A program made the position numbers and the translations under genes. Source: Paucibacter sp. B2R-40 (GTDB lineage Bacteria > Pseudomonadota > Gammaproteobacteria > Burkholderiales > Burkholderiaceae_C). From it: a DNA stretch of 64,000 nucleotides. The notes beneath the pieces are model-generated. The model had not been told where the DNA came from. It was given only the letters and a program-made list of their open reading frames with translations, and made no database searches. Positions 695-46,474 of the stretch are shown here, piece after piece; the stretch's first letter is position 1, and each line of letters begins with the position of its first letter. The DNA lies in NCBI RefSeq assembly GCF_025717555.1, contig NZ_JAJIRP010000007.1:62001-126000 (forward strand), read 5' to 3'.

Positions 695-2086
695 ATGAGC
701 ATTAGCAGTAGTCATGACAGCAATGGCTTGGAACGGCAGCAGCCTTTGCTGATCGTTGAAGACGACCTAGCTTTACAAAAGCAACTGAAGTGGTCCTTAG
801 ATCGCTTTGAATCAGCTGTGGCGCAGGATGTCGCCAGCGCGGTTTTGCAGTTTCGTCGGCACAGCCCTGCGGTGGTCACCATGGATCTTGGGCTTCCTCC
901 GGATCAAGATTCGGTGGCAGAGGGCTTTAAATGTCTTGAGAAGTTGTTGGAGTTGGATCCTGGCGTCAAGGTGATTGTCTTGACCGGGCAAAACGACCAG
1001 GACAATGCCTTACGTGCCATTCGTATGGGTGCTTATGATTTCTTGGCCAAACCGGTTGATCCGGATGTTTTGAGCTTGACGGTAGAGCGGGCCTATCGTC
1101 TGTACGAGCTACAGAAAGAAAATCAACGTCTACAGAATTTGCATCGAAGCGATGCTATGGGCGGTTTGATCACCCGTGATGCCGGTATGTTGAAAATCTG
1201 CCGAACCATTGAAAAGGTGGCGCCCAGTGATGCAACTGTGCTGCTGCTAGGCGAGAGTGGTACCGGCAAAGAGGTGCTGGCGCAAGGGTTGCATGAAGCT
1301 TCAAAGCGCAAAGGCCGCTTTGTGGCCATCAATTGCGCGGCCATCCCCGAGAATTTGCTGGAGAGCGAATTGTTCGGTTACGAAAAAGGCGCTTTTACGG
1401 GCGCCAGCAAAACCACGCTTGGCAAAATCGAGACGGCCAACGGCGGCACCTTGATGTTGGATGAAATTGGTGATTTGCCGATGAGTTTGCAGGCTAAATT
1501 ATTGCGATTTTTGCAGGAGCGCACGATCGAGCGTGTTGGTGGCAGGCAGGAAATTCCAATTGATGTACGGATTGTTGGCGCGACCCACCAAAATCTCAAG
1601 AATCATATTGCGGAAGGGCGGTTTCGTGAAGATTTGTATTACCGAATGGCAGAAATAGTTGTTGATATTCCGCCTCTGCGTGATCGCACGGGGGACGCGG
1701 TGCTTTTGGCTCACGCTTTTTTGAAACGATACGCGAGCGAGCAACGCCGAACTGCTTCCAGTTTGACATCAGATGCCCTAGCTGCAATTGAAGCCCATTC
1801 TTGGCCGGGCAATGTTCGCGAATTGCAGAATCTGGTAAAAAGGGCCTCCATCATGGCCGATGGTGATCGCGTGACTGCGACCGATTTGGGTTTGAAGGGC
1901 CAAACCGGGGAGGTTGATGCGGAAGCCAACTTATTGGATTTACGTTCTGTGCGAGAACGCGCTGAACGTCAGGCTGTTGTGACTGCTTTGGCACGGGTTG
2001 ATGGAAACATCGCTAAGGCGGCCGATTTACTGGGAGTCAGTCGCCCAACCCTCTATGATTTGCTCGATAGACTTAAAATTAAATAG
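695..2086 (+). CDS. prsR: PEP-CTERM system sigma-54 response regulator PrsR
   Basis: NtrC-type activator of sigma-54 RNA polymerase. An N-terminal receiver domain (about residues 17-135) has acidic residues E22-D24, phosphoacceptor Asp64 (VTMDLGLPP) and the conserved Lys in FLAKPVD. The AAA+ domain follows with Walker A GESGTGKE (186-193), the sigma-54-contacting GAFTGA loop (232-237) and Walker B LMLDEIGD. A Fis-type helix-turn-helix (GNIAKAADLLGVSRPTLY) ends the protein. The length of 463 residues is normal for the family. It directly follows prsK. A strong sigma-54 promoter in front of the PEP-CTERM gene at 8694 is its most obvious target. In Zoogloea-type floc formers PrsK/PrsR/RpoN are known to control PEP-CTERM genes; applying that here is inference. 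Confidence 0.95.
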   Translation: MSISSSHDSNGLERQQPLLIVEDDLALQKQLKWSLDRFESAVAQDVASAVLQFRRHSPAVVTMDLGLPPDQDSVAEGFKCLEKLLELDPGVKVIVLTGQNDQDNALRAIRMGAYDFLAKPVDPDVLSLTVERAYRLYELQKENQRLQNLHRSDAMGGLITRDAGMLKICRTIEKVAPSDATVLLLGESGTGKEVLAQGLHEASKRKGRFVAINCAAIPENLLESELFGYEKGAFTGASKTTLGKIETANGGTLMLDEIGDLPMSLQAKLLRFLQERTIERVGGRQEIPIDVRIVGATHQNLKNHIAEGRFREDLYYRMAEIVVDIPPLRDRTGDAVLLAHAFLKRYASEQRRTASSLTSDALAAIEAHSWPGNVRELQNLVKRASIMADGDRVTATDLGLKGQTGEVDAEANLLDLRSVRERAERQAVVTALARVDGNIAKAADLLGVSRPTLYDLLDRLKIK

Positions 2087-2204
2087 TATTTGAAATTTTT
2101 TAGTACTTCGCTTGTGTATTGGAATTACGCTGAATGCTTTGGGGAGTGTGAGGCATCTTTCGAAAAAAGCAGATTAATCAAACATTCTAAGAGGCGGTGG
2201 TGAA

Positions 2205-3494
2205 ATGAGTGAAATTAAAAGGCGAAGTTTCAAAAAACTAATTCATCACTATACTCGGTTGCTGTTTGGTAAGCTGCCGACGGATTTTAGGTACCCATTG
2301 TATCGCCGAATGGTGGATTTTGACCCAGTTCCGGATATGCGACTGGAATTGAAGATCGCTGAAACTAAAGAGGAGTTGGCCGGCTGTTTTAGTATTCTGC
2401 ATGATGCTTACGTTTCCAGCGGATTTATGCAGCCCCATCCCTCGGGGATGAGGATAACAAAATATCATGCACTACCCACTACCACAACCATTTGTGCAAA
2501 ATACGATGGAAAAATTGTGGGTACAATTTCCATGATAAGAGAGGGTGTTTTTGGGTTCCCTTTGCAGTCCGTTTTTGATTTGACAAAAGTTAGAGCTAAA
2601 GGTGGTCGGATTGCCGAAATATCTGCGTTGGCGGTTCATCCGGATTTTCGGAAGACAGGCGGTGCCATATTTTTCCCCTTGATGAAGTTTATGCGCGAGT
2701 ATTGCGTTAATTTCTTTGAGACACGACATCTGGTAATTGCAGTTAATCCAAATAAAATCGAATTTTATGAATCCATACTGTATTTCACGAGGCTGCAGGA
2801 ATCTGCTGTTGAGGAGTATGATTTTGCAAACGGAGCTCCTGCGGTAGGGGCGACGTTAGACTTAAGAGAACTCCCCGGATTCCTGCAGCAGGGCTTTAAG
2901 GGACGGCCCAAACGAAAGAATCTATACGGATACTTTTATGAAATAATTTTTAAAAATATAAAATGGCCCGAGCGAAAGTACCATATCACCAATGATCCGG
3001 TAATGACGCCAGAATTGTTGAATTATTTTTTTAATACTGAGTCGTCAGTATTTGATGATCTCGATGATAGGAGTAAAACGCTGCTGTGGTCGATTTATGA
3101 CTTGGCGGAGTATCGAGGAATATTGCCGATGCTAAAGGGCTCGGTAGATCATGGACATCCTTTGCGGAAGCATCAACGATATTCGATTCGCTGCCCGGGA
3201 AGTTTGACTATTGTGGTCGCCGGCGAAAGAAGAAATTTTGTTATTGAAGTGATAGAGATTTCTATATCAGGCTTCCAGGCGGAATGTAAATTGCAGCTGC
3301 CCTTGGAGATTGACGGTCTAGCTGAAATTGATTTGGGCCTGTTGGAGCGCTCGACCGTCAAGGTCAGGTCAGTTCGGGCTCGAGAATCTGAGGCCGGTAT
3401 TTTTTATGGCTTCAAGGTGAATGAGTCTGATAGTACTTGGAGACAATGCGTCGCGTCCTTGGAAGTGGGTATCACGACAGGCGATCTCAGATGA
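2205..3494 (+). CDS. FeeM-like N-acyltransferase (exosortase-associated GNAT) fused to a PilZ-like domain
   Basis: Residues ~45-230 resemble the PEP-CTERM/exosortase-associated acyltransferases related to N-acyl amino acid synthases. The core motif EISALAVHPDFRKTGG and the later VNPNKIEFYES are the GNAT-like acyl-donor and substrate strands. Residues ~320-425 look like a PilZ domain: R325-YSI-R329 fits the RxxxR c-di-GMP motif, and E351-ISIS-G356 fits (D/N)xSxxG except that Glu replaces Asp/Asn. At 429 residues it is far longer than the ~240-residue plain acyltransferases. A 118-base AT-rich gap separates it from prsR, and its stop overlaps the start of the next gene by 4 bases (ATGA), so the two are translationally coupled. 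Base composition is more AT-rich than the core EPS genes. The acyl acceptor is unknown; c-di-GMP binding is inferred and weakened by the Glu substitution. Confidence 0.75.
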   Translation: MSEIKRRSFKKLIHHYTRLLFGKLPTDFRYPLYRRMVDFDPVPDMRLELKIAETKEELAGCFSILHDAYVSSGFMQPHPSGMRITKYHALPTTTTICAKYDGKIVGTISMIREGVFGFPLQSVFDLTKVRAKGGRIAEISALAVHPDFRKTGGAIFFPLMKFMREYCVNFFETRHLVIAVNPNKIEFYESILYFTRLQESAVEEYDFANGAPAVGATLDLRELPGFLQQGFKGRPKRKNLYGYFYEIIFKNIKWPERKYHITNDPVMTPELLNYFFNTESSVFDDLDDRSKTLLWSIYDLAEYRGILPMLKGSVDHGHPLRKHQRYSIRCPGSLTIVVAGERRNFVIEVIEISISGFQAECKLQLPLEIDGLAEIDLGLLERSTVKVRSVRARESEAGIFYGFKVNESDSTWRQCVASLEVGITTGDLR

Positions 3495-4273
3495 GAAGAT
3501 GTTGCAGCCTGAAATTTCCTAGTCTTTTGATTTCCTGTTTTTTGCCGGCGTTGATAGCTGCGCATGCCAGTGCAGCCAGTTTGGAAACCCTACCTGAATT
3601 GGTTCGCAGGGTTAAACCATCGGTGGTTTTGGTGGGAACCTATGGCGAACTGGACAGCCCACGTTTCACTTTCAGGGGCACAGGTTTTGCGGTTGCCGAC
3701 GGTCGCCGCATCGTTACCAATGCGCATGTCATTCCAGATCCCGACGGCAGCGGAGCGAGATTTCTGATCATTCGCATCAAAGGAGAGTCGGGTGATTGGG
3801 TCAACCGCAAGGTTGAGCATGTGAGTCTTGATAGGCCAACTGATTTGGCTGTGATGGATATTACTGGCCCACCTTTGAGTCCCTTGCCATTGAAGGCGGA
3901 GGGTGTTCCGGAAGGTACGGCAGTTATGTTCATGGGCTTTCCAATTGCCGGAGCCTTGGGTTTTTCTCACGTCGCGCACCGTGCGATGGTTTCTGCGCTG
4001 ACGCCCGTAGCCCTACCGGCCCCAACGGGTAGCAGCTTGAATGCAAGGAATATTTCGCAAATTCGTTCGGGTACATTCAATATTATGCAATTGGATGGTA
4101 CGGCGTATCCAGGTAATAGTGGCGGACCTGTATTTAACGTCGAAACCGGCGAGGTGGTCGGCGTCATCAACATGGTGCTGTTGAAGGGTACGAAGGAGTC
4201 GGTTTTGAGTCATCCATCGGGTATTAGTTATGCTATTCCTGTTGAGTTTGTATTAAAAATGCTTCAAAAATAA
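3491..4273 (+). CDS. exported trypsin-like serine protease (HtrA-type protease domain, no PDZ)
   Basis: A signal peptide (MRRCCSLKFPSLLISCFLPA..., cleavage probably after HASA) is followed by a chymotrypsin-fold domain. The catalytic triad is visible: His79 in VTNAHVI, Asp118 in RPTDLAVMD and Ser210 in YPGNSGGPVF. The 260-residue length leaves no room for a PDZ domain, unlike DegP/DegS. I chose the ATG at 3491 because it gives the signal peptide and an ATGA overlap with the upstream acyltransferase-PilZ gene; an in-frame upstream start would add a charged stretch before it. It probably acts in the periplasm. Its substrate is unknown; a role in maturing secreted PEP-CTERM or acylated products is only suggested by position. 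Confidence 0.85.
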   Translation: MRRCCSLKFPSLLISCFLPALIAAHASAASLETLPELVRRVKPSVVLVGTYGELDSPRFTFRGTGFAVADGRRIVTNAHVIPDPDGSGARFLIIRIKGESGDWVNRKVEHVSLDRPTDLAVMDITGPPLSPLPLKAEGVPEGTAVMFMGFPIAGALGFSHVAHRAMVSALTPVALPAPTGSSLNARNISQIRSGTFNIMQLDGTAYPGNSGGPVFNVETGEVVGVINMVLLKGTKESVLSHPSGISYAIPVEFVLKMLQK

Positions 4274-4313
4274 CTATTACTTGTCAAGTGCTTTGAATCC
4301 TGGGTAGGGTCAC

Positions 4314-5420
4314 TTGGCTTGCTCGGGCGGTAATAAGGTTGATATTATTGATGTGGTGGATAGAATGAATATTGACTTGGTTTTGAAAGATATCGCTCGT
4401 CATGGTGTGATGGCTCCATCAGCAGATAATAAACTGGAATACTTTTTTGAATTTATTGGTTCGAGCGCTACTATTTGCATTAGGCCAGGCAGCGATTTTT
4501 CACCGACTTTGCCTAGGCATAAACGTGTGTTGAGCCTATTGGCGTTTGGTGCAATAGTTGAAAACATGCTTTTGCGTGCAACTGAATTGGGTTTTGTTGG
4601 CGAATCTTCTTGGTTGCCATGTGATGATTTGAGTATTATTGCCAGGGTTTGTTTTTCGAAAAATATTGAGATTTCTCCCGACCCACTCGCCACGGCTATC
4701 CCATTTCGCCAGACAAATCGGCAGATCTTCTTTCGCGGGGCGCCTACCTCTATGCAGAAAGATTTACTGGCCGCCGAGGTTCAAAAACATGCCGGAACAC
4801 GTTTGCTGTGGCTTGAAGGTGACAAAAGGTGGCGCGCACTCAAATTGATTTGGCTTGCCGAAAGCGAGCGATTTTGCTCAATTCGTTTGCATGAAGAACT
4901 ATTTTCTACGATCAGATTTGACCTGGGTTGGAAGGATACCTGCGATCAGGGTTTGCCGCCTGCAGCACTCGAGGTCGAATCGGTCATGCGGCCAATGTTC
5001 AAAGCCATTCGACATTGGCCGCTAATGCGGTGTCTGAGCGCCGTTGGAGTTCATCGCCTATTGGGTTTGCGTGCAGGATTTCTGCCGGCGTGGCAGGCAC
5101 CGGCGCTTGGCATAGTGCTGACCAGCCTTCCTATAGAAGAAGGTGCTGTAGCGGCTGGACGTAGTTTTGAACGTCTTTGGTTACGTGCGACGATTGATAG
5201 ATTGGTTTTGCAGCCGATGGCCGCATCTGCGGTGTTGTCGCTGCAAGAGGATACTGATCTCTATTCGTCAAAAAAATGCCGAAATTCACTTCGATCGGAA
5301 TGGGCTGATCTATTCCCTGGCGAATGGCCTGCAATGGTGTTTCGAATGGGTGGTATGTTGAAAACAGATCTTCCATCAGTAAAGACTGGCCGGCGCCTTC
5401 TTTCCTCTTATGAGCGGTAA
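4314..5420 (+). CDS. nitroreductase-fold protein, acg/Rv1355c-like
   Basis: The N-terminus HGVMAPSADNKLEYF matches the flavin-contacting 'APSxxNxQPW' region of nitroreductases. IPFRQTNRQIFF and the late stretch SFERLWLRATIDRLVLQPM match the Rv1355c/acg-like branch, in which the nitroreductase unit is often divergent or joined to a ThiF domain. Several usual FMN-binding positions are not obvious, so enzymatic activity is uncertain. The start is unclear: the TTG used here has only a weak GGGT upstream, while an ATG at 4365 has GGTGGA five bases before it and would remove 17 residues. It follows the protease by 40 bases. Note the separate ThiF-like gene at 9899, about 4.5 kb downstream. The region is AT-rich compared with the EPS genes. 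Confidence 0.7.
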   Translation: MACSGGNKVDIIDVVDRMNIDLVLKDIARHGVMAPSADNKLEYFFEFIGSSATICIRPGSDFSPTLPRHKRVLSLLAFGAIVENMLLRATELGFVGESSWLPCDDLSIIARVCFSKNIEISPDPLATAIPFRQTNRQIFFRGAPTSMQKDLLAAEVQKHAGTRLLWLEGDKRWRALKLIWLAESERFCSIRLHEELFSTIRFDLGWKDTCDQGLPPAALEVESVMRPMFKAIRHWPLMRCLSAVGVHRLLGLRAGFLPAWQAPALGIVLTSLPIEEGAVAAGRSFERLWLRATIDRLVLQPMAASAVLSLQEDTDLYSSKKCRNSLRSEWADLFPGEWPAMVFRMGGMLKTDLPSVKTGRRLLSSYER

Positions 5421-5456
5421 AGGGTCTGTGATTTGGCTCTTAATAAATGAAATTTT

Positions 5457-5486
5457 TTGAGGATTTTTGAGTTAATTTTGTATATT
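5457..5486 (+). promoter_or_regulatory. possible sigma-70 promoter for prsT
   Basis: In the very AT-rich 197-base gap before prsT, TTGAGG and TATATT are 18 bases apart. No sigma-54 element (GG-N10-GC) is visible here, so prsT may be transcribed independently of PrsR. AT-rich sequence throws up such matches by chance. Confidence 0.3.
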
Positions 5487-5617
5487 ATGTATTTTAGAAA
5501 TATGAAATTGCAAAATATGTATTTTCAATTAATTTGAAATTAACTGATTTGTCGGCAATAATGTAGCGGCTGTAATTTTCTTGAGTCATTGCAGCTGTGA
5601 ATTTGAAGGAGTTTGAT

Positions 5618-8398
5618 TTGGCTTCGAAATTTGATGTTCGATTTTTGATGAGTAGCAGCCTTGTTTTGGGGCTGCTTGCTTTTTCTGGTTGCAAGGGTGA
5701 CTCCGCCGAGGAGTTGGTTGCCGCGGCCAAGATGAGTGTGAATAAAGATGCAAATGCGGCAGCAATTGTTCAGCTCAAGTCGGCTTTGCAACTTAGTCCC
5801 TCCCATAGCGAGGCAAGATTCTTGTTTGGGGAGGCGTTGCTGCGTTCGGGCAAGGCTGAACTCGCTGTGGAAGAATTCAAGAAGGCCGAGGAATTGGGCT
5901 ATGCGGCAGATGCAGTTATTCCCGCATTGGCTCGCGCCATGTTGCAAGCGGGGCAAGCGAAGCAACTGTTGGCTCGGTTCTCTTCGACTGTTTTAACTGA
6001 AGCGCCGGCGATTGCCGATCTCAAGTCGACAATTGCGGTTGCGCTTTTGCAAAAGGACGACTTGGCGGCGGCAAAGATTGCAGTAGAAGAGGCATTGAGG
6101 GCGCAGTCAGAACACCCGCCTAGCTTGTTGCTAAAGGCGAACATGCTTGCAGGTGAGCAAGATATTGACGCGGCCTTGCAGGTGATTGGCTCATTGTTAA
6201 AGAAGGATCCTAAAAACGTTCAGGCTTGGCATATGTCCGGTGTCCTGCGCCTTCGAGGGAAAGGAGAAGAAGCAGCTGCTTTAGCGGATTTTTCACATGC
6301 CCTTGAAATTCAACCGACGTTTGCTCCCGCGCATCAAGCAATTTATATGCTTAAGTTGCAGAACAAGGATCTTGTGGGCGCAGAACAGCAATTAAATCGG
6401 CTGGTAAAGGTGCTGCCAAAGCATTCGACGACATTATATTTGTCAGCGCTCAACGCGTATCTGAAGGGAGAGACGAAAGTGGCCCGCGAAGCCGCTCAGT
6501 CTTTGACTAGATTGGCTCCAGATAGTGCCCATATTCAATTTCTGGTCGGCTTGATTGAATACCAAGATGGTTCGTTTGCGGCGGCTCAAAACTCTCTTGG
6601 CAAGGCGCTAAAAAATCATCCTGAATTTTCATTTGTCCGTCAGCTATTGACTAAGAGTTATCTTCAAGAGGGGAACCTCGAGAAGGCTCTTGCCACGTTG
6701 TCTCCACTACTGAGTCAGCAAAATATTGATGTTGAAACGCTGACCTTGGCTGGCCAACTTCATTTGCTAATGGGCAATCGAACCCAATCGGATGCATATT
6801 ACGCTGCAGCGTTGAAACTATCTCCTGATGATCCGCGTAGCCGAGCTGCTTTGGCATTGAGTCAGTTATCAAAGGGAAATGTCGGCAGTGGTTTTGCAGA
6901 ATTGGAGTCTATTGCCAATGCCAGCGCAGATCCGTATGTGGATTTCGCATTGGTCACGGCGAGAATAAAGCAAAATGACCTCGATGGTGCTTTGCGCGCG
7001 GTCGAAGTCTGGCAAAAGAAACAGGTTGATAAACCTTACCCTTTCAATATGAAGGGTCGGATTTATGAAATGAAAAATGATGTTGTCTCTGCTCGCCGAG
7101 CGCATGAGCAAGCAGTAGCGCTGGATGCGGCTTACTTCCCTTCAGCATCAAGGTTGGCAACCTTTGATATTGCAGAGCGCAATTTTGACAAGGCGTCCAA
7201 GCGATTTGATGCGCTGCTAAAGAAGGATCCAAATCATGTGCGCGCGCTGTTGGCCCTTGCCAATATTCGTCAGCGAGCAGGCGCCAGTCCCCAGGAAGTT
7301 GCGGCGATGGTGGCGAATGCCATTGACCGCAACCCTGCGGACTCGTTGCCACGACTGCGATTGATTGAGCTTCATCGACAGGCAGGTAATGTGCGTGCCG
7401 CTATTGAGGTAGCGGAGGCGGCGGACGCAGCAATACCAGGAAACAGTAAGATTCTGAATGCATTGGGGACGGTGCAGACGCAAGATCGAAAATACGGTCC
7501 AGCTTTGTCCAGCTTTGTGAAACTGGCGGTTCTGGATCCTCGCGCCCCACTGCCTCATCTGCGTCAAGCGGAAGTCTATTTGGCGACGGGCGACCAGCCG
7601 GCTGCGAAGAAGTCTTTGAATCGCGCTTTGCAGCTAGCTCCCGATTATCTGCTGGCGCAGCGTGCGCTTGTCGCGGTTTACTTGTTGGAGTCCAACCATG
7701 ACGCTGCTTTGAAGGTGGCCCGCACAGTTGAACAGCAGCGTCCGAAGGAGGACGTGGGTTACCTTTTGGAAGGGGATATTGAATCATCGCGCAAGCATAG
7801 AGAAGCGTCGATTCGAGCCTATCGCCTCGCACTTGCGCAAGGCAAGACTTCAGAGGCTGCAGGCAAACTCCATGCTGAGTTGAGCTTGGCTGGGCGTTCG
7901 GATGAGGCGGACCGCTTTGCGGATGATTGGCTCAAGCAGCAGCCTGCTGACAGCGGGTTCTTGATGTACTTGGGCGATCGAGCCTTTGGTCTGGCTCAGT
8001 ACCCAGTCGCGGAACGACGGTACCGAGAATTGCTGCAGTTCAAACCAGACTCTGTTGCAGCGGTCAACAACCTGGCGATTGCCTTGCATCGGCAGAAGAA
8101 AGCTGAAGCTTTGGAGATGATTGAGAAGGCCAATGGACTTGTTCCCGATAGCCCCGGTGTGATGGCCAGCATGGTCACGATATTGGCAGGGCAGGGGAAA
8201 TTTGACAGGGCAATCTTGGTGCAAAAACGATTGCTGGAACTCTCGCCTAACCAGCCGCGTCTCGGCTTGAGCCTCGCCAAGCTATACATAGACGCTGGTG
8301 ACAAGTCAAAGGCGCTGGCAGAACTCAAAAAGCTGAATCAACTTGGCGAGTCCTTTCCTGAGCGCGCAGAGGTCGCTACTTTGTTGAAAACTTTGTGA
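5618..8398 (+). CDS. prsT: PEP-CTERM system TPR-repeat lipoprotein PrsT
   Basis: A very long (926-residue) protein made of tandem tetratricopeptide repeats (e.g. AAIVQLKSALQLSPSHSEAR and AAKKSLNRALQLAPDYLLAQ) from about residue 35 to the end. The N-terminus has a short basic stretch, a hydrophobic core and the lipobox-like AFSGC (Cys25), so it is probably a lipoprotein. The TTG at 5618 is preferred because GAAGGA lies seven bases before it; an in-frame GTG at 5597 would add seven residues that include the ribosome-binding site. PrsT is a marker of exosortase A loci and is thought to work with PrsK/PrsR and the secreted polymer, but its molecular job is not established. The gene sits in its own intergenic setting, 197 bases after the nitroreductase gene. 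Confidence 0.93.
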   Translation: MASKFDVRFLMSSSLVLGLLAFSGCKGDSAEELVAAAKMSVNKDANAAAIVQLKSALQLSPSHSEARFLFGEALLRSGKAELAVEEFKKAEELGYAADAVIPALARAMLQAGQAKQLLARFSSTVLTEAPAIADLKSTIAVALLQKDDLAAAKIAVEEALRAQSEHPPSLLLKANMLAGEQDIDAALQVIGSLLKKDPKNVQAWHMSGVLRLRGKGEEAAALADFSHALEIQPTFAPAHQAIYMLKLQNKDLVGAEQQLNRLVKVLPKHSTTLYLSALNAYLKGETKVAREAAQSLTRLAPDSAHIQFLVGLIEYQDGSFAAAQNSLGKALKNHPEFSFVRQLLTKSYLQEGNLEKALATLSPLLSQQNIDVETLTLAGQLHLLMGNRTQSDAYYAAALKLSPDDPRSRAALALSQLSKGNVGSGFAELESIANASADPYVDFALVTARIKQNDLDGALRAVEVWQKKQVDKPYPFNMKGRIYEMKNDVVSARRAHEQAVALDAAYFPSASRLATFDIAERNFDKASKRFDALLKKDPNHVRALLALANIRQRAGASPQEVAAMVANAIDRNPADSLPRLRLIELHRQAGNVRAAIEVAEAADAAIPGNSKILNALGTVQTQDRKYGPALSSFVKLAVLDPRAPLPHLRQAEVYLATGDQPAAKKSLNRALQLAPDYLLAQRALVAVYLLESNHDAALKVARTVEQQRPKEDVGYLLEGDIESSRKHREASIRAYRLALAQGKTSEAAGKLHAELSLAGRSDEADRFADDWLKQQPADSGFLMYLGDRAFGLAQYPVAERRYRELLQFKPDSVAAVNNLAIALHRQKKAEALEMIEKANGLVPDSPGVMASMVTILAGQGKFDRAILVQKRLLELSPNQPRLGLSLAKLYIDAGDKSKALAELKKLNQLGESFPERAEVATLLKTL

Positions 8399-8457
8399 TT
8401 CTCGTGTCATGAGTCCCTGTCCTTGGCATCGAACTTTTCAAGCTTCCGTACGTTCAT

Positions 8458-8491
8458 CTGGGCAACTTTCCATCAAGAGTTGTACGCCCAG
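8458..8491. promoter_or_regulatory. inverted repeat 115-150 bases upstream of the sigma-54 promoter; candidate PrsR site
   Basis: CTGGGC-AAC and GTT-GTAC-GCCCAG form an interrupted dyad about 115-150 bases before the -24 element. This is the usual distance for the enhancer of an NtrC-type activator. It also lies 60 bases after the prsT stop and could be a weak hairpin, but it has no T-run. Assignment to PrsR is inference. Confidence 0.3.
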
Positions 8492-8605
8492 AAGCTGAAG
8501 GATGCTGGCAAAAGAGGCGCGAATGATGTCGGAAAACTTTACGCTTCACCTAGCTTTGAATTCTCGGTTCATTCTAAGTTATTGTTTATAAAAGGCTTTT
8601 TTTTG

Positions 8606-8623
8606 TTGGCATGACTGTTGCTG
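8606..8623 (+). promoter_or_regulatory. sigma-54 (RpoN) -24/-12 promoter for the PEP-CTERM gene
   Basis: TTGGCATG, four bases, TTGCTG: GG and GC are exactly 10 bases apart, matching the consensus TGGCAYR-N4-TTGCW almost perfectly. It lies 70 bases before the start of the PEP-CTERM gene, with transcription expected near 8633. The nearby PrsR is a sigma-54 activator with a GAFTGA loop, so regulator and promoter type agree. Confidence 0.85.
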
Positions 8624-8693
8624 TATGTGTGTGACAAGTGGGTTGAGAGGATGTCTCCTTGTCAGGCCAACATATTTTCAAAAAGGAATCAAT

Positions 8694-9578
8694 ATGAAGT
8701 TCATGATCAAAACTATCGTCGCTGCGTCGCTGATGGCGGCTGGCGTTTCCAGCTTTGCAGCTGGTTCTGTTGCTGGCGCTATCGGCGCTGGCGACGTGCT
8801 CTTCTCCGATGACAGCGCCGAGCGCTTCATCGATATGAATGGCAACGGTAAGCTGGATTTGGGCGATAAGTTGCGCGGCATCTTTTCGATCGGCAATACG
8901 GCTCCGCCAAACGTGCCTCTGGGTGCAGGTACCGGTTACAACGAGTTGACCGGTATTTTCCAGACTGTCGTGACAGGCAAGGTTTTTGTTGGTGTTGTAT
9001 CTGGCATTGCTCGCTACGACTACACCTTTGCTGCTGATGCTGCTTTCGCGGCTGAATTCGGTCAAGCCGCTGGCACGGTGGGCATGTTCTTCGAAGACAG
9101 CGCGCAGAATTTTGCTCGCCAGGCCTGCGGTGGCGCGAACGACTTTGCGGCTTGCGAGGCTACCGCCACGGGTGGTAATTTGTGGGCCTCTTTTGGGATT
9201 GCTGGCGGACTCTGGAAGGCTGCATCTGCTGCTGAAACTCCCGGTGTTGGCGCGCTTTTGCCTTTGACTACGCCGCTGGGTACTTTTGGTGTTGGTTTGG
9301 ACTTCATCACCAACAACACGGGCTACCAATGGAACAAGGTTGATTGCGCTGATCCAACGGATCTGTTTGCGCCAACAGTGAAGGTCGACTTTTGCGGTCA
9401 AGGTGGTATTTTGGCTTCGGGTCGCTTGCGCGCCGGCCAACTGACACCTACGCCTTACGACGTTTTCGACAATCTGGACTTCTCTGCAAACCGGGTTCCT
9501 GAGCCAAGCTCGGTCGCGTTGGTTGGTTTGGCTTTGTTGGGCCTCGGTGCCGCAAGCCGCCGCAAGCTGAGCAAGTAA
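8694..9578 (+). CDS. PEP-CTERM sorting-domain protein with an EF-hand-like loop (probable XrtA substrate)
   Basis: Secreted 294-residue protein. It has an N-terminal signal peptide (MKFMIKTIVAASLMAAGVSS, cleavage near SFA-AG) and a textbook PEP-CTERM tail: RVPEPSS (from residue 267), a hydrophobic helix and the terminal basic cluster ASRRKLSK. Residues 47-58, D-M-N-G-N-G-K-L-D-L-G-D, have Asp/Asn at positions 1, 3, 5, 9 and 12 of an EF-hand/dockerin-like calcium loop. Four Cys in two close pairs (QACGG...AACEA; VDCAD...DFCGQ) may form disulfides. The ATG at 8694 follows AAAAAGGAA; an earlier in-frame start at 8625 would lie upstream of the expected transcription start. It is driven by the sigma-54 promoter and closed by a strong terminator, so it is a single-gene transcript. 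By family analogy it is cleaved by XrtA and glycosylated or anchored for surface or floc-matrix use. Confidence 0.93.
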   Translation: MKFMIKTIVAASLMAAGVSSFAAGSVAGAIGAGDVLFSDDSAERFIDMNGNGKLDLGDKLRGIFSIGNTAPPNVPLGAGTGYNELTGIFQTVVTGKVFVGVVSGIARYDYTFAADAAFAAEFGQAAGTVGMFFEDSAQNFARQACGGANDFAACEATATGGNLWASFGIAGGLWKAASAAETPGVGALLPLTTPLGTFGVGLDFITNNTGYQWNKVDCADPTDLFAPTVKVDFCGQGGILASGRLRAGQLTPTPYDVFDNLDFSANRVPEPSSVALVGLALLGLGAASRRKLSK

Positions 9579-9592
9579 TTGTTTTTGCATAT

Positions 9593-9610
9593 CGTGCTCA
9601 CTTGAGCACG
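9593..9610. other. short perfect inverted repeat just before the terminator
   Basis: CGTGCTCA-CT-TGAGCACG lies 15 bases after the PEP-CTERM stop and two bases before the terminator hairpin. It could protect the 3' end of the mRNA or act as an operator; nothing decides between these. Confidence 0.5.
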
Positions 9611-9612
9611 TC

Positions 9613-9643
9613 AAAAAACGCCGCAATTTGCGGCGTTTTTTTT
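9613..9643 (+). terminator. Rho-independent terminator after the PEP-CTERM gene
   Basis: A-tract, GC-rich stem ACGCCGCA/TGCGGCGT with a three-base loop, then eight T. The flanking A- and T-runs make it usable in both directions. The remaining ~250 bases up to the next gene at 9899 hold no other element I can support. Confidence 0.92.
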
Positions 9644-9898
9644 CGTCTGTCTTGAATGCGAGCTTGGCGGTGCCTTGTCTAATGTATTTACTGCTTTGCC
9701 GCGCCAGTCCAGAATGCGCTCGCGAGTATGTCTTTCGTGCCGGGTCGCGGGCATAGAGACGTTTTTTTCGGGAAGGGGGCTTGATTCAGGCAATTTATGG
9801 GATAAGGCAGTACGTCTCCTCTAAATTGGCTGAATCGATAAATCCCGCTATGGCATGATCGAAACTTGCGATATTTCAGCTTGAACAGGAGTGTTTCC

Positions 9899-10768
9899 TT
9901 GGAAGCAAAACAAGCAGTTTTCCAATATGACCGAGCTTTTTCTAGAAACATAGGCTGGGTCACGGCAAAAGAGCAAGAAAAGCTACGTGGTGCTCGGGTG
10001 GCGATCGCCGGTTTGGGTGGTGTGGGCGGAGCCCACCTGCTAACTTTGGCGCGACTTGGTGTAGGTAATTTCAATATCGCCGACTTTGACGATTTCGAGG
10101 TTCACAACTTCAATCGACAAGTTGGCGCATTCATGTCCACGGTAGGTCGCCCTAAAGCCGAGGTCTTGCGCGAGCAGGCGTTGGGTATCAACCCCGAGGC
10201 CGATGTTCGTGCGTTTGGAGAGGGTGTAACGGCCGCAAATCTCGATGACTTCCTGCGCGATGTGGACGTCTATGTCGACGGCATCGATTTTTTTGCAATC
10301 GAGGCGCGGCGCATGCTGTTTCGGGCGTGTCATGAGCGTGGCATTCCTGCGTTGACCGCTGCGCCCTTGGGTATGGGTGTGTCTTTTCTTTACTTTCGCC
10401 CAGATGGTATGAGTTTTGAGCAGTATTTCCGCATTGAAGGGCGTAGCCAGCAGGAGCAATATGCGCGCTTCATTGCGGGACTTTCGCCAGCCGCCTTGCA
10501 CCGCGGCTATTTGGTCGCGCCGGACGCGGTGAATTTCAAAGAGAAGCGCGGGCCATCCACCATGATGTCTTGCGATTTGTGTGCTGGTGTTATGGGCACT
10601 TCGGTATTGAAAGTGTTGCTTAAGCGCGGCCCAATTCGCGCAGCACCCTGGGCAATGCAGTTCGACGCCTACAAACAAAAGCTCAGCTTCACTTGGCGCC
10701 CGTTTGGCAATGCCAACCCGCTGCAAAAACTGCTACTCGCTTTGATTAGACCGATGTTGAAGGGTTGA
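9899..10768 (+). CDS. ThiF/E1-like adenylyltransferase
   Basis: Rossmann-fold member of the ThiF/MoeB/HesA superfamily. The nucleotide loop is VAIAGLGGVGG (about residues 34-44), followed by IADFDDFEVHNFNRQ, the usual D...N..RQ ATP/Mg contacts, and by GRPKAEVL. A single C225-DL-C228 pair near the C-terminus resembles half of the usual zinc site. The TTG at 9899 is chosen because AGGAG lies seven bases upstream; an in-frame TTG at 9866 would include that site. The 289-residue protein has no rhodanese or sulfur-carrier partner nearby, so it is unlikely to serve thiamine or Moco synthesis. E1-like and nitroreductase domains are known to occur fused (Rv1355c/MoeY type, from memory); here they are separate genes in one locus. 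The substrate is unknown. Confidence 0.82.
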   Translation: MEAKQAVFQYDRAFSRNIGWVTAKEQEKLRGARVAIAGLGGVGGAHLLTLARLGVGNFNIADFDDFEVHNFNRQVGAFMSTVGRPKAEVLREQALGINPEADVRAFGEGVTAANLDDFLRDVDVYVDGIDFFAIEARRMLFRACHERGIPALTAAPLGMGVSFLYFRPDGMSFEQYFRIEGRSQQEQYARFIAGLSPAALHRGYLVAPDAVNFKEKRGPSTMMSCDLCAGVMGTSVLKVLLKRGPIRAAPWAMQFDAYKQKLSFTWRPFGNANPLQKLLLALIRPMLKG

Positions 10769-10995: not shown

Positions 10996-11631
10996 TTGAA
11001 CAAGAGCATTTGTTTTTTCTCGCGGCAGTTGGGCCTTGCGCTGTGCGCGGTGGCCGTTGTGGTGCTTCAAGGTTGTGCCAGTGGTTCGGGGCGCTTCCCG
11101 CCAGCACCCGTGACCGCTGCAGCCCAAGACTACAGTTACATCGTCGGCGCTGGCGACAATATCAACATCATTGTTTGGCGCAATCCAGAATTGTCGATGT
11201 CCGTGCCGGTGCGGCCGGATGGCAAGATTGCCACGCCGTTGATCGACGAGTTGCTGGCGCAGGGCAAGAATCCGATCGAACTTGCTCGTGAGATCGAGAA
11301 GCAACTCGGCAAATATGTGCGAGACCCCGTGGTAACAGTGATCGTGACCGGCTTTGTTGGTCCTTACAGTGAGCAAATTCGTGTCATCGGCGAAGCTGCT
11401 AGACCTCAGGCCTTGCCTTACAAAATGAATATGTCCGTCTTGGATGTGATGATCGCAGTTGGTGGATTGACGGATTTTGCTGCCGGCAATGACGCCACGA
11501 TTTTGCGCTCTTCCGACGGTGGCAAACAGTACACCGTGCGTTTGCGGGACTTGATCAAGCGCGGCGATGTATCCGCCAATGTCGAGATGCGACCGGGCGA
11601 CGTGTTGATCATTCCGCAGAGTTTTTTCTGA
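10996..11631 (+). CDS. XrtA-system polysaccharide export lipoprotein (Wza/OPX family)
   Basis: Outer-membrane polysaccharide export protein of the short type (211 residues). TTG start with GAGGAG five bases before it. The signal peptide ends in lipobox LQGC with Cys27. Then come the poly_export (PES) domain (YIVGAGDNINIIVWRNPELS...VRPDGKIATPLIDEL) and a SLBB-like beta-grasp (IRVIGEAARPQALPYKMN), ending RPGDVLIIPQSFF. It would connect to the chain-length/kinase pair downstream and carry the polymer across the periplasm and outer membrane. It is the first gene of the long plus-strand EPS operon; a strong hairpin separates it from the next gene. Confidence 0.93.
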   Translation: MNKSICFFSRQLGLALCAVAVVVLQGCASGSGRFPPAPVTAAAQDYSYIVGAGDNINIIVWRNPELSMSVPVRPDGKIATPLIDELLAQGKNPIELAREIEKQLGKYVRDPVVTVIVTGFVGPYSEQIRVIGEAARPQALPYKMNMSVLDVMIAVGGLTDFAAGNDATILRSSDGGKQYTVRLRDLIKRGDVSANVEMRPGDVLIIPQSFF

Positions 11632-19040: not shown

Positions 19041-20258
19041 ATGGCCAACATCCTCTATCTGGTGCATCGCCTGCCGTACCCGCCTAACAAGGGCGATAAG
19101 GTCCGGTCTTTCCATTTGCTCAAGCATTTGGCGGCCGAGCACAGGGTGTTTTTGGGTACCTTTGTCGACGATCCGGACGATCTGCAATACCTCGATACCG
19201 TGCGCGAGTATTGTGCGGACTTGCATGCGGTCCAATTGGATCCCAGGCGCGCGAAGTTGGCGTCAATTCGTGGTTTGCTGACGGGTGAAGCGCTTAGCCT
19301 GCCTTTTTACAGAGATGCAGGGATGAGCGCCTGGGTCAGGCAGATTTCCAAGACAGCAGCACTGGACGCGTCGGTGGTGTTTTCTTCAGCAATGGCTCAG
19401 TACGCCATGCAATTGCCCGATTTGCCCATGCTGGTCGATTTTGTGGACCTGGATTCCGCCAAATGGACGGATTACGCGCCCGATCATGTCTGGCCTATGT
19501 CCTGGCTGTATCGCCGCGAGGGGTGCAAACTGCTGGCTTTTGAGCAAGCTGTTGCCGAACGGGCTGCTGCTTCCTTCTTTGTCACTGACAAGGAGGTGGC
19601 GCTTTTCAGGCAGCAATCGCCGCGAACAAGTGCCCCGGTGCAGTCCTTGTGCAATGGGGTAGACGCCGACTTTTTCTCGCCCGATCTGGCGCGCCCCTCA
19701 CCATTCCCGGCAGCACAAACCCCGCTGGTCTTTACCGGCGCTATGGATTACTGGCCCAATGTGGACGCCGTGACCTGGTTTGCCAACGAGATGTTGCCGG
19801 TGCTGCGACGCGATTGGCCGAATTTGCACTTTCACATCGTCGGACGCAGCCCAACCCAGGCCGTATTGGCCTTGGCCAGCAACTGTGTCAGTGTGACTGG
19901 CACGGTGCCGGACGTGCGACCTTATTTGCAACACGCTGCCGTCGTAGTGGCGCCCTTGCGTTTGGCACGGGGTATTCAAAACAAGATTTTGGAAGCGATG
20001 GCGATGGCGCGGCCGGTGGTCGCATCCAGCACCTGCGCGGAAGCAATCGACGGCGACGTGGGGCGCGATCTGATGGCCGCTACGGAGCCGAGCGACTTCG
20101 TCCGCGTGGTGGGCGAATTGCTGACACAGGCGAGCTTGGCTGACCGCGTCGGTGCGGCCGGCCGCGAATGTGTTCTTAAAAATTACAGTTGGTCGGCCCA
20201 TTTGCTTGGCATCGATCAGCATTTAGACCGACTGACGCAGCGAGACCAAAAGGTTTGA
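19041..20258 (+). CDS. XrtA-associated glycosyltransferase, TIGR03087/stp1 type
   Basis: 405-residue GT-B glycosyltransferase. The N-terminus MANILYLVHRLPYPPNKGDK is characteristic of the sugar transferase regularly linked to exosortase A. The C-terminal nucleotide-sugar domain includes LVFTGAMDYWPNVDAV and RGIQNKILEAMAMARPVV (GT4-type E-x7-E-like region). The ATG at 19041 is chosen because it opens the conserved HRLPYPP motif. The stop overlaps the xrtA start (TGATG), so translation is coupled. Acceptor and donor are unknown. Confidence 0.92.
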   Translation: MANILYLVHRLPYPPNKGDKVRSFHLLKHLAAEHRVFLGTFVDDPDDLQYLDTVREYCADLHAVQLDPRRAKLASIRGLLTGEALSLPFYRDAGMSAWVRQISKTAALDASVVFSSAMAQYAMQLPDLPMLVDFVDLDSAKWTDYAPDHVWPMSWLYRREGCKLLAFEQAVAERAAASFFVTDKEVALFRQQSPRTSAPVQSLCNGVDADFFSPDLARPSPFPAAQTPLVFTGAMDYWPNVDAVTWFANEMLPVLRRDWPNLHFHIVGRSPTQAVLALASNCVSVTGTVPDVRPYLQHAAVVVAPLRLARGIQNKILEAMAMARPVVASSTCAEAIDGDVGRDLMAATEPSDFVRVVGELLTQASLADRVGAAGRECVLKNYSWSAHLLGIDQHLDRLTQRDQKV

Positions 20259-21907
20259 TGGCTTCCATGACTATTCCGCCAGCTTGGCGCCGAGCCCTAC
20301 CAGCATTTTTTGTCTTGCTGGCGGTGGTGTTGCTGCTGTATCGCGATACGGCCTCGGCCATGGTTGAGATATGGAATCGCTCCGAAACCTTTGCACATGC
20401 TTTTGTCGTGCCACCGATCAGCATGTGGCTGATCTGGCGCCAGCGCAAAGTCCTGGCCAATCTGATCCCAAGCCCTTCGGGATGGTTCTGCCTGCCCCTG
20501 GCCGCGATGGCCTTGTTGTGGCTGCTTGGGGATTTGGCGGCCGTCAATTCAGCGACGCAACTGGCCCTGACGGCGATGCTAGTTTTGGTGGTGCCGGCCG
20601 CTTTAGGTTGGCCGGTCGCGCGGTCGATTGCTTTCCCCTTGGGTTTCTTGTTTTTTGCCGTGCCCATCGGCGAGTTCATGACGCCTCAGTTGATGGAGTG
20701 GACAGCCGACTTCACCGTCGCTGCTGTTCGCGCCAGCGGCATTCCGGTGTTCCGTGAAGGCCAGCAATTCGTCATTCCCAGCGGCAACTGGTCGGTGGTC
20801 GAGGCCTGCAGTGGGATTCGCTACTTGATGGCCTCGGTGATGGTGGGTACCTTGTTTGCCTACCTGAACTACCGCTCGCTGACACGTCGCTGGATCTTTG
20901 TCGGGGTTGCCATCGTTCTACCCCTGATCGCCAATTGGGTGCGCGCCTACCTGATCGTGATGCTGGGCCATTTCTCTGGTAACAAGCTTGCGACTGGTGC
21001 CGACCACCTCGTCTACGGTTGGGTGTTTTTTGGCATCATCATGATGTTGATGTTCATGATTGGTGCGCGTTGGTCTGAGCCGGATGCTGAGCCGCCGCAG
21101 GCTATTGGTGCAGCCGACCTGGCCTTATCGGCCGCGAGAGTGTCGGCTTGGTGGCCCTCTTGGGCAGCAATTGTGGTCGTTTTGCTGGCGCCACATCTGG
21201 CGCTCAAGGCACTCGTTTTGTCAGAAGGTCCAGCCGAGTTTGCGCTGGCTGCGCCTGAGATGAGCCATGGTGCATGGCAGCGCCAAACTGCGCTTGCGCC
21301 GCGATTCAAGCCGGTAATAGAAAACCCAAGTGCCGAGTGGCAGGGGAGCTTCCAACGCGAGCGTGCCGATGGCGCCTCCGCTCAGGCAGGCCAAGTCGGC
21401 CTGTATGTGGCTTACTTTCGCCAGCAAGATTACCAACGCAAGCTCATCAGTTCAAACCATGTCTTGGTCAATTCCAATGATGTCGATTGGGCCTTGGTGG
21501 CTTCTGGTACCGGCAGCCAAACCGTCGACGGGCAGACGCTGCCCATGCAAACGGCCGAATTGCGCCGTGCCGGTGGTGCAAGCCTGGGTGATGCAAGTTC
21601 TGTCAATGACAGGCTCAAGGTGTGGCGGATCTACTGGATCAATGGTCGACCGATGATCAGCGATTGGCAGGCCAAAGTGGTGGGCGCTGGCTATCGTTTG
21701 ATAGGGCAGGGCGATGATGCAGCGATGTTGGTCCTTTATGCTGACAAGGCGGGCGGCGATGCGATGCTGCGCGCCTTTTTGCAAGACAACTGGGGCTATT
21801 TGGACGCGTGGTTGCGCAAGACCCGTGAGGCGGCGCGTGTCGGAGCGGTCGCTCCTCGCCTTGATTCGGCTATCAGCGCGGCCAGTTCTTCAGCTGCCCA
21901 GCCATGA
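20258..21907 (+). CDS. xrtA: exosortase A (XrtA) with C-terminal EpsI domain
   Basis: Polytopic inner-membrane cysteine transpeptidase/protease that recognises PEP-CTERM tails. The catalytic residues are visible: Cys184 in VVEACSGIRY, Arg229 in ANWVRAYL and His250 in ADHLVYGW. About eight hydrophobic segments span residues ~15-285. The C-terminal ~240 residues (from LALKALVLSEG) form the periplasmic EpsI/DUF3485 domain with GLYVAYFRQQDY and MQTAELRRAG, the fusion that defines XrtA. 549 residues. The upstream gene's TGA and this ATG overlap (TGATG), and its own stop overlaps the next ATG (ATGA). Its likely substrate in the window is the PEP-CTERM protein at 8694. Confidence 0.96.
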   Translation: MASMTIPPAWRRALPAFFVLLAVVLLLYRDTASAMVEIWNRSETFAHAFVVPPISMWLIWRQRKVLANLIPSPSGWFCLPLAAMALLWLLGDLAAVNSATQLALTAMLVLVVPAALGWPVARSIAFPLGFLFFAVPIGEFMTPQLMEWTADFTVAAVRASGIPVFREGQQFVIPSGNWSVVEACSGIRYLMASVMVGTLFAYLNYRSLTRRWIFVGVAIVLPLIANWVRAYLIVMLGHFSGNKLATGADHLVYGWVFFGIIMMLMFMIGARWSEPDAEPPQAIGAADLALSAARVSAWWPSWAAIVVVLLAPHLALKALVLSEGPAEFALAAPEMSHGAWQRQTALAPRFKPVIENPSAEWQGSFQRERADGASAQAGQVGLYVAYFRQQDYQRKLISSNHVLVNSNDVDWALVASGTGSQTVDGQTLPMQTAELRRAGGASLGDASSVNDRLKVWRIYWINGRPMISDWQAKVVGAGYRLIGQGDDAAMLVLYADKAGGDAMLRAFLQDNWGYLDAWLRKTREAARVGAVAPRLDSAISAASSSAAQP

Positions 21908-46451: not shown

Positions 46452-46474
46452 ATACTTTAGAGATACCCCTAGCC

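Follow-up and report, generated by a model that had tools for sequence, protein, structure and literature searches.

Acyl-oxazolones are made in mycobacteria by TyzACB and TrzAS and in Pseudoalteromonas rubra by OxzAB. In the published work on this kind of pathway a ThiF-type enzyme performs the cyclisation with ATP while desaturation depends on O2 (PMC10404671, PMC12856293, PMC12479983). For the stieleriacines the proposed route is one of cyclisation, oxidation and hydrolysis, and the same trio of enzymes has been proposed for N-acyl dehydrotyrosines. Here we describe a related gene set in Paucibacter sp. B2R-40 (GCF_025717555.1, a genome of 5.6 Mb), comprising a FeeM-type N-acyl amino acid synthase (NAS) with a PilZ tail, a ThiF/E1-like adenylyltransferase and a nitroreductase-fold protein, all threaded through an exosortase A (XrtA)/PEP-CTERM locus. 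The stretch analysed, referred to as the window, is the 64,000 nucleotides at positions 62,001–126,000 of contig NZ_JAJIRP010000007.1, and coordinates are those of the window unless another locus is named.

Acyltransferases have been tied to PEP-CTERM before. NAS genes were reportedly linked to PEP-CTERM genes by Craig in 2011, as that work is cited by others, and the PEP-CTERM/exosortase-associated acyltransferases form the family TIGR03694, but the FeeM protein of the window scores 17.7 bits against the cut-off of 111.95 for that model and therefore belongs to another NAS family. The stieleriacine-type cluster of S. maiorica includes a PEP-CTERM gene, a link remarked upon by the authors (PMC7293339), whereas a term search of the main text of PMC12479983 returned no PEP-CTERM, exosortase, PilZ or protease. 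Within the one open library searched, the planctomycete of PMC7293339 was the only example of a ThiF and nitroreductase set found with PEP-CTERM.

Two other described systems share parts of the locus. Nas343 and Nas354, from a slaughterhouse biofilm metagenome, carry a PilZ domain on the C-terminal side of a FeeM domain; Nas354 alone yields a biosurfactant in E. coli, which is abolished by changing the catalytic glutamate, and its binding of or regulation by cyclic di-GMP (c-di-GMP) was proposed, not shown. Their origin was unknown to the authors, who presumed that there was no pathway operon, whereas we find 16 proteins of this layout in ThiF/PEP-CTERM loci (15 named loci and the window). The psc1 cluster of Rubrivivax gelatinosus (EmbRS), which governs biofilm, resembles the window in its PEP-CTERM kinase and regulator, PrsT-like lipoproteins, S1 peptidase, two ThiF-annotated entries (one a fragment) and the same export operon; in the published account the ThiF entries have neither a transposon hit nor a proposed function (PMC4897644 and PMC3684757 for these comparisons).

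A probable acyl-oxazolone gene set in an exosortase A locus

We consider, with a probability of about 0.77, that the FeeM–PilZ, ThiF and nitroreductase-fold proteins make up a pathway to acyl-oxazolones or N-acyl dehydroamino acids, comparable to Tyz, Trz and Oxz and to the route proposed for stieleriacines. The window set is predicted to have the same activities as Tyz, Trz and Oxz, namely an N-acyltransferase, a ThiF cyclase and a flavin desaturase of the nitroreductase superfamily, and its ThiF and desaturase both match the family model of Rv1355c (TrzS). It differs in that three separate genes are spread through the exosortase A locus, that the acyltransferase is PilZ-tailed and that the product is a predicted one. 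With the stieleriacine-type clusters it shares the combination of NAS, ThiF and nitroreductase, although its desaturase comes from another lineage than those of its nearest relatives. The gene order is prsK, prsR, FeeM–PilZ, protease, nitroreductase-fold gene, prsT, PEP-CTERM protein, thiF and then the XrtA exopolysaccharide operon with exosortase A:

695–2086, + strand: prsR, sigma-54 response regulator of the XrtA/PEP-CTERM system (TIGR02915, 731.6 bits, cut-off 502.6)
2205–3494, + strand: FeeM-type synthase with PilZ tail, Nas354-type architecture (Pfam FeeM, 153.9 bits)
3491–4273, + strand: exported trypsin-like serine protease, HtrA-type (Pfam Trypsin_2, 1.2e-22)
4353–5420, + strand: predicted flavin-dependent desaturase of the nitroreductase superfamily, FDO/Acg-like (PRK14851, 8.9e-27; fold 2ymv)
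5597–8398, + strand: prsT, TPR lipoprotein of the XrtA/PEP-CTERM system (TIGR02917, 637.7 bits, cut-off 312.2)
8607–8622, + strand: sigma-54-like -24/-12 site with one mismatch, upstream of the PEP-CTERM gene
8694–9578, + strand: PEP-CTERM sorted protein (TIGR02595, 20.9 bits, cut-off 16)
9899–10768, + strand (open frame from 9866): ThiF/E1-like adenylyltransferase, predicted oxazolone-forming cyclase (PRK08223)
10996–11631, + strand: exopolysaccharide export gene of the XrtA operon (TIGR03027, 233.3 bits, cut-off 180)
20189–21907, + strand: exosortase A with EpsI domain (TIGR03109, 351.2 bits, cut-off 208; TIGR02914, 85 bits, cut-off 42.8)

The four enzymes that the initial annotation had placed between prsR and the exopolysaccharide export gene are all found there. 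Its suggestion of a candidate undescribed system is too wide, the pathway chemistry being described in the three papers cited at the outset. The ThiF protein, which probably starts at the TTG at 9899 and shares 91% identity with its Paucibacter oligotrophus counterpart, matches PRK08223 with 445 bits (cut-off 266), far above the at most 99 bits obtained with the housekeeping ThiF, MoeB and TcdA models, so that by model scores it does not fall in with the housekeeping families, a grouping that would have told against the initial annotation. Weaker matches, below the respective cut-offs, are to PRK14851 (310 bits) and the Rv1355c family (72.6 bits), whose models describe longer fusion proteins; the closest solved sequence is ThiF 1zfn (2.7e-17). 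Its assignment as a ThiF-type cyclase was judged by such family models rather than by the TyzB, OxzB or TrzS sequences. A CxxC motif, present in 73/104 ThiF proteins, was uninformative.

The nitroreductase-fold protein, annotated as divergent, is so in sequence and not in orientation. Its gene starts at GTG 4353 or ATG 4365, and the protein has no Pfam match at 0.1; its NCBIfam matches are PRK14851 (8.9e-27, 93 bits), the Rv1355c family PRK07877 (4.2e-22, 78.2 bits) and Acg (8.9e-20, 71 bits), none over its cut-off and the first two being models of longer fusions. A confident structure model (pLDDT 87.3) is closest to Acg 2YMV (E 1.5e-13, TM 0.69), and family ranking and fold together point to a flavin desaturase. 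Acg 2YMV is also the structure nearest to the desaturase domain of TrzS (PMC12856293). The FeeM–PilZ protein is an N-acyl amino acid synthase by family, and its predicted fold contains a PilZ domain behind the FeeM domain, which gives it the Nas354-type layout as judged by domain order rather than by comparison with the Nas354 sequence.

Joint models also link these families. PRK14851 consists of ThiF followed by nitroreductase, and PRK14852 aligns in succession with the FeeM–PilZ protein (model positions 29–279), the ThiF protein (304–588) and the nitroreductase-fold protein (608–795), which implies the natural existence of a single protein in which the three are fused.

In the pathway that we propose, the FeeM–PilZ protein would join an acyl chain, from acyl carrier protein or coenzyme A, to the amino group of a probably aromatic amino acid, and would probably be modulated by c-di-GMP through its PilZ domain. 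ThiF would then use ATP to activate the carboxylate, upon which the amide oxygen would close a 5(4H)-oxazolone, and the flavin- and O2-dependent desaturase would add an alpha,beta double bond either before or after ring closure. The expected product is an N-acyl oxazolone, or the N-acyl dehydroamino acid that its hydrolysis would yield; it would be produced in concert with the extracellular-matrix programme of the XrtA/PEP-CTERM system and perhaps serve as a surface-active or signalling biofilm lipid. Acid and methanol are known to open the oxazolone ring. A substrate that was either a peptide or an amino acid had been envisaged; the known substrates are small N-acyl amino acids, which fits the second and not the first.

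Very unlikely, in our view, is a modification of peptides or proteins, in which ThiF would activate a ribosomal peptide or ubiquitin-like carrier, the nitroreductase oxidise it, the acyltransferase lipidate it and the protease mature it outside the cell. E1-like enzymes and nitroreductase-fold oxidases do pair in pathways to ribosomally synthesised and post-translationally modified peptides, as in the thiazole/oxazole peptides, and the exported protease overlaps the acyltransferase gene by ATGA. The acyltransferase nonetheless belongs to the FeeM enzymes, whose substrates for acylation are amino acids; the ThiF protein is closer to PRK08223 than to the ThiF and MoeB types by the scores given above; and no YcaO cyclodehydratase, as expected near a thiazole/oxazole peptide (TOMM) pathway, was among the NCBIfam matches of the 30 open reading frames between 13 and 37983, to which the search was confined (for part of them only to E 1e-10). 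The protease, moreover, is unlinked to ThiF among genomes with XrtA, as detailed below.

That the locus belongs to the XrtA/PEP-CTERM system is clear from the presence of PrsK, PrsR, PrsT, XrtA and the exopolysaccharide genes. The models over their cut-offs in the window are TIGR02915, 02917, 03007, 03018, 03006, 03015, 03016, 03019, 03027 and 03109; for PrsK the cut-off of TIGR02916 is exceeded in the part of prsK that lies just upstream of the window, where a TIGR03013 (EpsB_2) match is also found. Control of the whole gene set by sigma-54 promoters was considered and rejected: a one-mismatch site lies just upstream only at the PEP-CTERM gene, and the pattern is not enriched in the window (60 sites against a shuffle mean of 55.15). 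The G+C content is 0.42–0.50 over 2001–6000, which covers the FeeM, protease and desaturase genes, and 0.54–0.58 over the export operon at 11–14 kb, as after recent gain or exchange of the former stretch. Further along, an AMP-binding enzyme and then a pyridoxal phosphate-dependent decarboxylase are encoded at 44850–47728, after the exosortase polysaccharide genes.

Co-occurrence of the three families

The distribution of these genes was assessed in 150 genomes of the order Burkholderiales and in 103 related loci, made up of the 28 other ThiF loci of the order and 75 named loci picked by likeness to the window ThiF. Contig ends truncate at least 20 of these 103, so an absence may reflect the edge of the fetched stretch. 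Among the 150 genomes ThiF was found in 29, PrsT in 44 (a count that takes in G081, where the score comes only from adding up separate pieces, and G126, where the match is partial), XrtA in 40 and the protease in 35. FeeM reached 100 bits in 32 genomes and the desaturase 190 bits in 25, these two thresholds having been set after gaps in the scores were seen. A desaturase search at E 1e-20 gave 34 genomes, the nine beyond the 25 scoring only 76–112 bits.

ThiF proved to be tightly associated with its proposed partners. FeeM at the higher threshold is present in 27/29 ThiF genomes and 5/121 others, and at the Pfam cut-off, which admits 55 genomes, in 27/29 and 28/121 (p 2e-12); the desaturase is present in 25/29 ThiF genomes and in none of the 121 others. 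The sorting system follows the same pattern, with PrsT in 28/29 against 16/121 and XrtA in 27/29 against 13/121. The Fisher tests treat genomes as independent though they are related, and a within-family permutation was used as a control: in the 13 families holding both kinds of genome PrsT is found in 17/18 ThiF genomes and 4/26 others, with p 5e-6, the floor of that test. Across 398 genomes of the phylum PrsT occurs in 14/16 ThiF genomes against 11/382 others, and outside the order in 11/12 (nine of these 12 being from one family); the ThiF genomes without PrsT in this set are G013 and G280. The co-occurrence of the families thus extends widely beyond this genome. ThiF and nitroreductase are fused in 12 of the 103 related loci (seven in the 28 of the order, five in the 75 named), and this, with the distribution of the desaturase, bears out the suggestion that the two act in one pathway. 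Of the wider proposal that all four enzymes act jointly, the part that couples FeeM to ThiF and the nitroreductase has stood up, and the protease is better grouped with exosortase A.

These data also bear on whether FeeM–PilZ alone makes a surfactant N-acyl amino acid, with ThiF and the nitroreductase being chance neighbours from an unrelated cofactor or detoxification pathway, which we regard as quite unlikely. Nas354 indeed needs no partner for its biosurfactant in E. coli, the window genes are spread across 8.5 kb with prsT and the PEP-CTERM gene between them, 24/75 named loci have no FeeM in the fetched stretch, and five genomes have a strong FeeM plus PrsT or XrtA without ThiF. Chance neighbours would not be expected to show the skewed distributions just given or to share NCBIfam models, and in the 24 of the 28 order loci that have FeeM the median gap between FeeM and ThiF is 30 bases. 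The desaturase is likewise present in 24 of those 28, and 21 have all three genes; in the 75 named loci, many of them cut by contig or flank ends, FeeM is present in 51, the desaturase in 40 and all three in 22.

Several observations weigh against the oxazolone pathway as we propose it, or against parts of it. One genome (G013, locus L039) has FeeM, ThiF and desaturase side by side with neither PrsT nor XrtA, so these three genes can stand without the sorting system. There is no nitroreductase in the fetched stretch of 35/75 named loci, and for 18 of the 40 loci without a strong nitroreductase the genomes were searched and the best match anywhere was 108 bits, which implies that ThiF works without this partner in many species. 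The window nitroreductase is 18–27% identical to the other 29 aligned, and given this low identity its partnership with ThiF is argued from position and lineage. For c-di-GMP control, the PilZ tail scores 17.6 bits in Pfam against a cut-off of 22.5, and the second PilZ motif of the window begins with E. Finally, the literature covered reports no product from this genus, and according to the published accounts oxazolones were not observed in the producers of thalassotalic acid, kyonggic acid or stieleriacines.

c-di-GMP-binding PilZ domains are defined by the motifs RxxxR and [DN]xSxxG. The putative counterparts in the window are RKHQR and, at the second position, EISISG, which in three relatives reads DASLNG. 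A PilZ match at E <=0.1 was obtained for 10/15 aligned FeeM–PilZ proteins, that of the window included, the best at 1.4e-7 (alignment A3, which leaves out L100 with its frame-shifted N-terminus). In six of the seven loci of one cluster a YcgR-like PilZN–PilZ gene lies divergent from FeeM and within 308 bases of it (L036 13097–13924, L040 5902–6672, L043 7571–8341, L044 3397–4254, L050 7981–8805 and L054 11280–12083), and may be a split counterpart of the PilZ tail. Stand-alone YcgR genes are common in general; the neighbourhood is suggestive of c-di-GMP control and is left as a lead.

Genes for MMPL-type exporters and LolA-like proteins are seen near ThiF in L135 (10916–13258), L036 (7710–10058), L044 (7281–9632) and others, and MacB/FtsX permeases with HlyD proteins in further loci, all of them possible export routes. 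None of the MMPL, LolA, MacB/FtsX or HlyD types is among the window open reading frames scanned between 2 and 12 kb.

A possible exchange of the alpha-carbon enzyme

The window desaturase is not the one kept beside ThiF by P. oligotrophus and many other close relatives. In a tree of 66 of the 67 rows (L083 being left out) it pairs with one distant sequence, L053 (34–36% identity), in a separate lineage of 13 rows, although long branches leave its exact placement unsure. Members of this lineage adjoin ThiF elsewhere, with gaps of 14–58 bases in L130, L035, L059, L061 and L129, and so support the window type as a ThiF partner. The usual desaturase, which P. oligotrophus has at 556 bits, has no copy in the whole B2R-40 genome, where the best other match is 101 bits. 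On a joint swap of PrsT and the nitroreductase as one cassette the PrsT sequences were uninformative, the window PrsT being less than 38% identical to every PrsT in the loci.

A second kind of exchange would involve a methyltransferase family of the Methyltransf_11/UbiE-like type, encoded within 1.2 kb of ThiF:

L041 11667–12524, L042 6597–7589, L051 8688–9542 and 13 named loci: methyltransferase, Methyltransf_11/UbiE-like

Across the 104 loci (the 103 and the window) 64 have a desaturase above 190 bits, 16 the methyltransferase, none both and 24 neither. The methyltransferase is thus present in 16/40 loci without a strong desaturase and 0/64 with one (p 2.4e-8), a figure that is to be read with the relatedness of the loci, with the discovery of the family in the very loci on which the exclusion was then counted, and with L083, counted as lacking the desaturase although it has a desaturase-like match of 147 bits some 6.5 kb away from ThiF. 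At E 1e-40 the family occurs in 3/150 genomes, all of them among the four that have ThiF but no desaturase; as the query alignment already contained these three, what the search establishes is that the remaining 147 lack the family. Of the 24 loci that have neither enzyme, 14 are titled Colwellia, Cognaticolwellia, Thalassotalea or Thalassomonas. Loci L103–L127, by title mostly Colwelliaceae and Alteromonadales, have FeeM and ThiF with no desaturase or methyltransferase in the stretch, and the five such genomes that were searched (L106, L107, L108, L112 and L116) gave no desaturase match at E 1e-15.

The alpha hydrogen of an oxazolone is acidic, and desaturation and alpha-methylation can therefore be alternative fates of one intermediate. 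We read the ThiF-formed oxazolone as being either desaturated or, as we infer, methylated at the alpha carbon, and the methyltransferase as a candidate oxazolone alpha-C-methyltransferase, an enzyme for which no precedent was found in the one open library searched. An alpha-methyl N-acyl tyrosine, N-palmitoyl-alpha,O-dimethyl-tyrosine, is known from Alteromonas sp. RKMC-009 (PMC11943599), and the methyltransferase would give alpha-methyl N-acyl amino acids like it if ThiF were a hub as follows. Against strict exclusivity, Stieleria neptunia has been described with a UbiE-like methyltransferase near its ThiF and nitroreductase.

We put forward only tentatively, and as more likely wrong than right, the wider proposal that in exosortase A loci ThiF is a common oxazolone hub with interchangeable alpha-carbon partners. 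These would be a flavin desaturase, in the window itself replaced by a distant relative, or a methyltransferase dependent on S-adenosylmethionine in the sister loci; PilZ would provide gating by c-di-GMP, and the lipids would be the chemical arm, as signal or matrix surfactant, of PEP-CTERM biofilms. The methyltransferase family and its exclusion came from the same loci, which makes this proposal slightly less likely.

The protease and wider implications

The protease starts at 3491, overlapping the FeeM stop as ATGA, and is exported and trypsin-like as annotated. It resembles DegS (PDB match 1.3e-8) and HtrA, has invariant H79, D118 and S210 in alignment A4 of 15 sequences, and has no PDZ match in Pfam; in NCBIfam it stays below the cut-off of every model, and none lists it as part of the XrtA system. 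Its occurrence is all-or-none, with one match per genome at 289 bits or more in 35/150 genomes and nothing at E 1e-30 elsewhere. XrtA is present in 33 of these 35 and PrsT in 34.

A single unit of all four enzymes, in which the protease would release or mature the lipid or a PEP-CTERM partner, seems to us unlikely. The protease adjoins FeeM in eight named loci and lies about 1 kb from it in many Colwelliaceae, its link to ThiF over the 150 genomes is strong (24/35 against 5/115, p 8e-15), and within the 40 XrtA genomes there is a weak trend towards FeeM, 26/29 FeeM genomes having the protease (p 0.075). Yet 11/35 protease genomes have no ThiF, and inside those 40 genomes the protease is unlinked to ThiF (p 0.66), so that the overall link is what a shared tie to XrtA would give. 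We read the protease as an unnamed companion of exosortase A, separate from the oxazolone set, and perhaps involved in quality control or maturation of PEP-CTERM proteins. A patatin-like lipase is encoded close to FeeM and to the same protease family in L103 (5711–6553) and 13 further loci of its cluster, seen in Colwelliaceae-type loci.

The chemistry of the trio and the link between NAS and PEP-CTERM genes (PMC7293339) are already on record. New as far as the literature was searched are the scale of the link between the whole trio and PEP-CTERM, the kind of locus in which the PilZ-tailed synthase is found, the apparent replacement of the desaturase, the methyltransferase as an alternative to it and the assignment of the protease to exosortase A. 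Oxazolone lipids have so far been shown in few bacteria, and the co-occurrence suggests that they, or their ring-opened forms, are produced by many Proteobacteria that form flocs and biofilms, which would tie these lipids to a protein-sorting system. Orphan synthases of the Nas354 type, with their PilZ domain, gain a genomic setting, predictions can be made as to which strains would make dehydro and which alpha-methyl lipids, and an unnamed protease emerges as a probable functional component of the exosortase A machinery.

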